From: Deltaproteobacteria bacterium
GTDB lineage: Bacteria; Desulfobacterota; DSM-4660; Desulfatiglandales; Desulfatiglandaceae
Direction: 5' to 3'
Assembly: GCA_019307945.1 (NCBI GenBank)
Contig: JAFDIS010000014.1
Span: 1-56,198, forward strand
Length of the DNA: 56,198 bases
In this document: in pieces, positions 24,228 to 25,325 of the stretch
Numbering within the stretch: the stretch's first letter is position 1
How the letters are laid out: every line of letters begins with the position of its first letter
Translations under genes and position numbers: made by a program
The notes under the pieces: generated by a model
What the model saw: only the letters and a program-made list of their open reading frames with translations
The model's database searches: none
Told to the model about the DNA's origin: nothing

Positions 24228-25325
24228 ATGAACGGGGAGCGAAGACACTGGTGGCATTTCAGGATAGAGGACTTGCTGGCGCTTGGGAAAACTCGTGCGC
24301 CGCTTTACATTTACAACGAGGAAACCCTCAATGAGATCTACTTTGACCTGTCGGCGCTAGACGTTGTGGCGGAACTTTTCTACCCCTTCCATGCGAATTC
24401 CCATCCAAAGGTGCTGCGGAAAGCCTTTGAGCAGAATACGAGTTTCCGGTGCAACTCTCTTCTGGAAATAGATCGTCTGAGAGAGATCCTTCCGGCGCTC
24501 GACCCCGGGCGCATCCTATTTCTGGCGGATCGGGCCCCCATGAAAGACTGTGAGCAAGCGCTGAAGCAAGGGGTCCACGTGGCCACCAGGCCGAGAAAAG
24601 ACACCACGCAAAACAGTCTCAATGCCATTGAAGGGAAAGGTGTTTCCATTTACATGGAGAAGGGTGGGACGATCGTGCCGACAGCGTCTTCAAACAGGGC
24701 CGCCAGGGGGATCTATATCTGCCCCGACGCCCGCTTTTCTTCCCTGTGCAGTCAAGCTGAAAAGATTTCTCTGTTCCGAGAGCTGTCACGGAATTTCCCG
24801 AATGTTTCAATCCTGACCCTGGGCAACGATGTGTCCGGAAAATCAGATTTTTATGGGGATAAATGGAACATTTCCGAAATAGGGCATGACCTGGAAGCCA
24901 TTCAGGATGCCTGCCCCCGGTTTGAACTACGCCTTGAGTTGCCCATTCATCTGGTGAGTTATTCAGGCGCACTGGTGGTGAAAGCCCTGGAGAGCGGCAC
25001 GGCCGAAGGTGGGCATTATGTCAGGATCCATCTGCCCTTGAATCACTCCCTTATCGCTGAAATCCATGAGAGCACCCACCACCTGGTCAACCTTTCAAGA
25101 CCGGGCTTCCAAAATGATATCATGATCCAAAAGGTTCAACCGCAAGATCATTCGGGAAGCGCCACAATGTATCTCAAACATCCATGCCCGGTTTCAAAAG
25201 GCGATATACTGCTGATAACCCAATTGGGAGCATATAGTTCACAAACACGATCAACCGAAATTACGCGAAATCGACTGCCTGAATTGTATCTAAAGGCGCG
25301 ATCTCTATGCCCGGTTAAACTTTAA
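24228..25325 (+). CDS. Diaminopimelate-decarboxylase-like PLP-barrel protein lacking catalytic residues
   Basis: 365 residues, co-linear with fold-III (Orn/DAP/Arg) decarboxylases, especially the decarboxylase half of LysC-LysA fusions. APLYIYNEETLNE opens it; ILPALDPGRILFLADRAPMK, LVSYSGALVVKALESG, STHHLVNLSR and KGDILLITQLGAYSS align along the rest. Every expected catalytic site has changed. His55 (FYPFHANSHP) replaces the PLP lysine of Y-A-M-K-A-N; LGNDVSG (198-204) replaces the glycine-rich phosphate loop; ELPI (237-240) replaces E-P-G-R; DHSGS (307-311) replaces C-E-S-x-D. The frame is open for its full length, so it may be a selected pseudoenzyme rather than a dead gene. It is visibly more A+T-rich than core neighbours, and its ribosome site is weak. 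Confidence 0.75.
   Translation: MNGERRHWWHFRIEDLLALGKTRAPLYIYNEETLNEIYFDLSALDVVAELFYPFHANSHPKVLRKAFEQNTSFRCNSLLEIDRLREILPALDPGRILFLADRAPMKDCEQALKQGVHVATRPRKDTTQNSLNAIEGKGVSIYMEKGGTIVPTASSNRAARGIYICPDARFSSLCSQAEKISLFRELSRNFPNVSILTLGNDVSGKSDFYGDKWNISEIGHDLEAIQDACPRFELRLELPIHLVSYSGALVVKALESGTAEGGHYVRIHLPLNHSLIAEIHESTHHLVNLSRPGFQNDIMIQKVQPQDHSGSATMYLKHPCPVSKGDILLITQLGAYSSQTRSTEITRNRLPELYLKARSLCPVKL

Follow-up and report, generated by a model that had tools for sequence, protein, structure and literature searches.

If a protein keeps the fold of an amino-acid decarboxylase while losing the residues of its active site, what is it kept for? The question is raised by a gene in a 56,198-nucleotide stretch of deltaproteobacterial DNA (contig JAFDIS010000014.1; the window), flanked there by a metallo-beta-lactamase-fold gene and an HD-domain gene. 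The original prediction, made from the letters alone, had claimed an intact frame of 365 codons; an open frame does run from ATG to stop at the positions given in table 1, which collects the features discussed below. We call the product and its relatives pseudo-LysA.

Table 1. Features of the pseudo-LysA gene; positions are those of the window.
Feature	Position	Strand	Basis or remarks
Pseudo-LysA gene, 365 aa, LysAC-related fold-III decarboxylase relative without catalytic site	24228..25325	+	frame, alignment, tree, AlphaFold, omega
Arg12 codon	24261..24263	+	21/21 in pseudo-LysAs; Glu in both LysACs; Arg in 29% of canonical LysA-type sequences
Helix 31-42, EETLNEIYFDLS	24318..24353	+	inside the best-conserved interior stretch, residues 31-45
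His55 codon, PLP-binding lysine position	24390..24392	+	alignment
Lys65 codon	24420..24422	+	20/21 pseudo-LysAs; Thr in both LysACs
Weakly conserved central barrel segment, residues 121-210, shortened relative to LysAC	24588..24857	+	alignment, AlphaFold, conservation profile
LGNDVSG (198-204), replacing the glycine-rich phosphate loop LGGGLGI	24819..24839	+	alignment
ELPI (237-240), replacing E-P-G-R; Glu237 kept	24936..24947	+	alignment
DHSGS (307-311), replacing C-E-S-x-D	25146..25160	+	alignment
C-terminal tail (354-365), YLKARSLCPVKL	25287..25322	+	Arg358, Cys361, Val363 21/21; tail absent from LysA and LysAC

Is the fold that of a decarboxylase? AlphaFold2, given the window protein and 13 relatives (14 rows), returned a model with a pTM of 0.80 and a mean pLDDT of 76.6, in which both the fold-III barrel and the C-terminal sandwich are present; a second family member was also modelled with a pTM of 0.80. 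Foldseek and VIA-align group the model of the window protein with DAP and ornithine/lysine decarboxylases. The best solved match is the LysA 3vab (VIA-align Z 24.9, 333 residues, rmsd 3.6), and superposition on another LysA, 1knw, gave a Z of 24.2, so that structure prediction and superposition on LysA, the check proposed with the original prediction, bear out the fold. The end-to-end match that had been claimed holds over the 333 residues that align with 3vab (residues 5–359 of the model) but has to be qualified for residues ~121–210, which are shortened and poorly conserved. Model confidence is high over about residues 10–120, low around 121–175 and 202–212, and falls below a pLDDT of 50 in the last five residues. 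The last residues are low in both models; the cause may be an alignment of just 14 rows and not disorder.

Which decarboxylase is the nearest relative? Against NF006515, the bifunctional aspartate kinase/DAP decarboxylase (LysAC), the window protein scores 130.3 bits, under a cut-off of 802 that was set for the fused protein; against TIGR01048 (LysA) it scores 44.8 bits, under the cut-off of 297.9, and its match to Pfam PF02784 is marginal (22.3 bits; threshold 23.4). NF006515 is matched by all 14 of the aligned pseudo-LysAs, the best at 1.7e-83. LysAC, as found in Legionella and Xanthomonas, is the closest active sequence found. It shares with pseudo-LysA, over most of the length, the WW start, FYxxxAN-H-P, GFxCxSxxE and HHxIVNLSR, whereas pseudo-LysA has no kinase half, has lost the catalytic set and part of the central segment, and has gained a C-terminal cysteine tail and conserved Arg12, Glu32, Asn35 and Lys65. 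Canonical LysA has the same fold but matches weakly in sequence, and its PLP and substrate residues are missing from pseudo-LysA. The label of DAP-decarboxylase homologue describes the LysA-type fold correctly, but the nearest active relative found is the decarboxylase half of LysAC and not ordinary LysA. In a maximum-likelihood tree of 36 rows, 20 pseudo-LysAs form one side of a branch at 100/100, and the two LysACs fall between them and the canonical LysA-type sequences, which make up a side of their own (100/99). Descent of pseudo-LysA from LysAC is the direction that we infer from this tree, which has a midpoint root, just two LysACs and a long branch (G049).

What is left of the active site? 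The window protein was aligned with the Legionella and Xanthomonas LysACs and with canonical LysA, and the residue calls of the original prediction (His55, LGNDVSG, ELPI and DHSGS) are all right in this alignment. Its statement that every catalytic site is replaced went too far: the lysine, histidine, serine, arginine and C-E-S-x-D are gone, but the pyridine-nitrogen glutamate Glu237, the first loop glycine Gly199 and the tyrosine of the GAY motif, Tyr336, remain. The part of LysAC that runs from R-V-D-P-G to T-G-G-x-x-S-K-F-G is unrecognisable in the central segment, and the positions Arg154, His197 and Ser200 are likewise lost (these three, with E274, R277 and C360 below, carry what we take to be their T. 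brucei ODC numbers).

Relatives tell the same story with different residues. They share the loss of the catalytic set but not the individual substitutions: the lysine site holds H, Y, R, G, A, V, S, P or K, and His in only 6 of 21. Among 18 near-complete members the active consensus is retained at the PLP lysine in two (11%; G014 and G071), at Arg154 in 11%, His197 in 6% and Ser200 in 11%, at the loop glycines in 67, 17 and 33%, and at E274 in 50%; R277 and C360 are retained in none of the 18, and the Glu, Asp and Tyr that follow C360 in 6, 11 and 22%. Mean retention at catalytic positions is 19%; it is 40% at 66 further positions that the active enzymes conserve. Since the G014 and G071 proteins keep the lysine without R277 and C360, loss of the lysine probably occurred more than once, either later than that of the other catalytic residues or along with it. 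As read from these alignments, the old active site drifts freely across the family, and PLP binding and decarboxylase activity are presumably absent.

How widespread is the family? In protein and profile searches, 24 of the class's 85 genomes, from three families, proved to hold a relative, either complete or truncated at a contig end; a single-sequence search of the genome contigs gave no close relatives, but an alignment-based query did find them. The named carriers are deltaproteobacterial or Desulfobacterales genomes, mostly of uncultured organisms, and include the isolate NaphS2, a naphthalene-degrading sulfate reducer. In 395 genomes of the phylum, the family profile at E 1e-14 found nothing further beyond one 423-residue decarboxylase-like frame (G236), and that frame aside no nearer active ancestor was seen there. 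Presence is patchy within genera, and many of the genomes are incomplete; as many genomes of the same family and genus yielded no pseudo-LysA, we regard it as accessory. No match listed contains an internal stop. The G077 copy (L077:2609-3499) is 297 residues long, having lost ~68 residues of the central barrel in frame while keeping both conserved ends.

Is the family under selection? Omega was estimated by pairwise GY94 maximum likelihood for seven pseudo-LysA pairs and five pairs of canonical LysA from the same group. For pseudo-LysA it is 0.21–0.45, below 1 in every pair (p 2.6e-4 to 4e-16, values that are not independent since the pairs partly share ancestry), and for LysA 0.035–0.084. 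The closest pairs, G004–G025 and G004–G036, gave 0.34 and 0.45; synonymous change is near saturation in more distant ones. All members in these pairs lack the catalytic set, so the purifying selection acted after its loss. By this measure pseudo-LysA is constrained, though less than LysA. The constraint is uneven: mean pairwise identity is 0.60 over residues 31–45 and 0.62 over the last five, against 0.12–0.24 across 91–225. Conservation is low across the central barrel and the segments of the former active site, with peaks at 31–45 and in the final residues; dN over residues 1–85 is about half its value over 86–225, or less, in four of five pairs. The original prediction of a retained pseudoenzyme is upheld by the catalytic loss common to the relatives, the lack of internal stops among the matches listed and these omegas; dN/dS across relatives, also proposed with it as a check, is significantly below 1 and argues against a fresh pseudogene. 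A fresh pseudogene or an assembly artefact is ruled out by the relatives in independent genomes together with an omega below 1.

What has been conserved instead? Compared with the two LysACs and 14 canonical LysA-type sequences, pseudo-LysA has a set of newly conserved residues that neither LysAC and at most a minority of the canonical LysA-type sequences have at those positions. Besides those given in table 1, they include Glu32, present in every true pseudo-LysA N-terminus, and Asn35, at positions that both differ in LysA and LysAC, as well as Tyr354 and Ala357 of the tail, whose consensus is YLxARxxCPV. That residues were lost at the old site and gained elsewhere suggests that the function has changed and that the gene is not simply decaying. 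Free drift at the old site alongside near-invariant new residues at both ends is, on these alignments, what is new here.

Homology to LysAC, loss of the catalytic set, retained selection and new invariant residues are observed. Building on them, we propose, with a probability of about 0.55, that pseudo-LysA is a pseudoenzyme, related to LysAC, that has been redeployed for binding without catalysis and acts through an N-terminal patch and the cysteine tail. The decarboxylase site of a LysAC-type half would have been lost and released from selection while the fold was retained. New conserved residues would have arisen in the N-terminal helix (Arg12), in helix 31–42 (Glu32, Asn35), at Lys65 and in the tail; they may form one surface, and through them and the tail the protein would contact a partner as an adaptor or regulatory subunit. 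Against this proposal, no partner, operon or phenotype ties pseudo-LysA to a process, its neighbours differ between genera, and it is accessory. A bolder form we put forward only tentatively, as the less likely outcome: the catalytic barrel would have become a non-enzymatic platform, with selection shifted from the old active site to new N-terminal residues and to a flexible, invariant cysteine tail that makes a contact or performs a reaction in anaerobic deltaproteobacteria.

Might the new residues be a new active site? The invariant cysteine, arginine, lysine and glutamate could equally well be catalytic, and charged residues and a cysteine are invariant where LysAC had none. Migration of catalytic residues is known in pseudoenzymes (PMC10211241). 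Cys361, Arg358, Arg12, Glu32 and Lys65 would then be the migrated site of a new enzyme on the old barrel. But just four residues follow the cysteine, this part of the model has low confidence, and no substrate or pathway neighbour was seen; we consider a new enzyme unlikely.

Could pseudo-LysA instead regulate the active LysA of the same cell? It would, by analogy with antizyme inhibitor or a prozyme, form a heteromer with LysA (or with aspartate kinase) and alter its activity. Fold-III decarboxylases dimerise, and of 12 pseudo-LysA genomes tested, nine encode a full-length canonical LysA; in G053 other decarboxylases are present. The canonical lysA of the window genome is split, running off two contig ends (G000:C160:3-281 and G000:C4:1-105), with its middle missing from the assembly. 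A precedent is trypanosome AdoMetDC, which is activated by a dead paralogue (PMC5201418).

Several observations speak against such a regulator. LysA subunits lend the CESxD loop across the dimer, and pseudo-LysA has lost that loop. Its kinship is with LysAC and not with the resident LysA, and its omega is several times that of LysA. Relatives such as G015, G032, G003 and G006 have LysA without pseudo-LysA, while in G004, which is 92% complete, no canonical LysA was found. No linkage to lysine or polyamine genes, lysA included, was seen at the pseudo-LysA loci (regulators need not be linked), and Rfam searches of the window and of five relatives' loci gave tRNAs only, in one locus, and no riboswitch; the antizyme-inhibitor-like role suggested by the original prediction has found no support so far. 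We judge this alternative about as unlikely as a new enzyme.

Might the gene be functionless and in slow decay, its frame kept by chance? The family evolves fast and occurs patchily, and some lineages have lost the gene or parts of its interior (~68 residues in G077; a mere relic in G034), all of which would fit. However, no stop lies inside any match listed although protein identities fall to ~25%, omega is below 1 in all pairs tested, and residues are invariant in 21 of 21, which makes decay improbable.

Do the neighbours name a process? In an all-against-all comparison over the loci of pseudo-LysA relatives, no neighbour was common to most loci and sharing was confined to sister genomes, so a conserved operon was rejected. 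The neighbours are DUF1638 and DGC in NaphS2, GAF and PIN in G001, a carboxyltransferase in G053, a pyridine-nucleotide oxidoreductase in G026, 6PF2K in G008, and radical-SAM genes in two pairs of genomes. In G020 and G070 the pseudo-LysA gene overlaps a TIGR03975 B12 radical-SAM gene by 4–8 bases (331 bits for the G020 protein; cut-off 282), and in G004 and G036 a radical-SAM gene of another kind lies just upstream.

In the related genome G034, pseudo-LysA survives only as its first ~22 residues, METEWWRCRRNELLAMAGQESP, joined in frame to the TIGR03975 protein (L152, reverse complement, frame 208-2223); the remainder of the gene is deleted, while the sisters G020 and G070 keep an intact copy overlapping the same enzyme. 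TIGR03975 is above cut-off in 31 of the 85 genomes of the class (loci L131-L160), often just downstream of genes that, from reading their sequences, resemble indolepyruvate-ferredoxin oxidoreductase; no RiPP precursor was noticed at these loci. Its role in the class may differ from its name, 'RiPP maturation C-methyltransferase'. A RiPP-type pairing was rejected, as TIGR03975 adjoins pseudo-LysA in one genus only across the class and the G034 enzyme does without an intact partner.

NHLP peptides have enzyme-like leaders, and these gene pairs and the conserved tail would suit a carrier or substrate of a radical-SAM maturase, with the cysteine tail modified and the dead barrel as recognition domain; but this is the least probable alternative, because the enzyme occurs in many genomes of the class without pseudo-LysA, because the G034 relic implies that it is independent of pseudo-LysA, and because the tail is constant where most RiPP cores are variable.

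Has a dead decarboxylase been put to use elsewhere? To our knowledge, most cases in which an inactive relative of a PLP amino-acid decarboxylase has been retained come from eukaryotes. Antizyme inhibitor (AZIN1/2) is likewise an inactive fold-III decarboxylase relative kept by selection, and the family profile matches AZIN1 (3btn) weakly, at 6.7e-9. The analogy is one of working: AZIN1/2 is eukaryotic, derives from ODC and binds antizyme, whereas no link to antizyme or polyamines was seen for pseudo-LysA. In trypanosomatids the AdoMetDC prozyme and the dead paralogue of DHS are also kept alongside the active enzyme (PMC5201418, PMC3663545); they differ in having unrelated folds and proven heteromers. 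Text searches of open-licence papers turned up no title or abstract opening that describes a bacterial dead relative derived from DAP decarboxylase, a weak negative, and the main text of the NaphS2 genome paper does not mention diaminopimelate.

An old enzyme scaffold thus seems to have been taken over for another, probably binding, job. In the pseudo-LysA family a fold has lost its chemistry but acquired new invariant residues, and the family's many divergent members, two of them with the catalytic lysine, together with its cultured host NaphS2 make this change of function directly testable.
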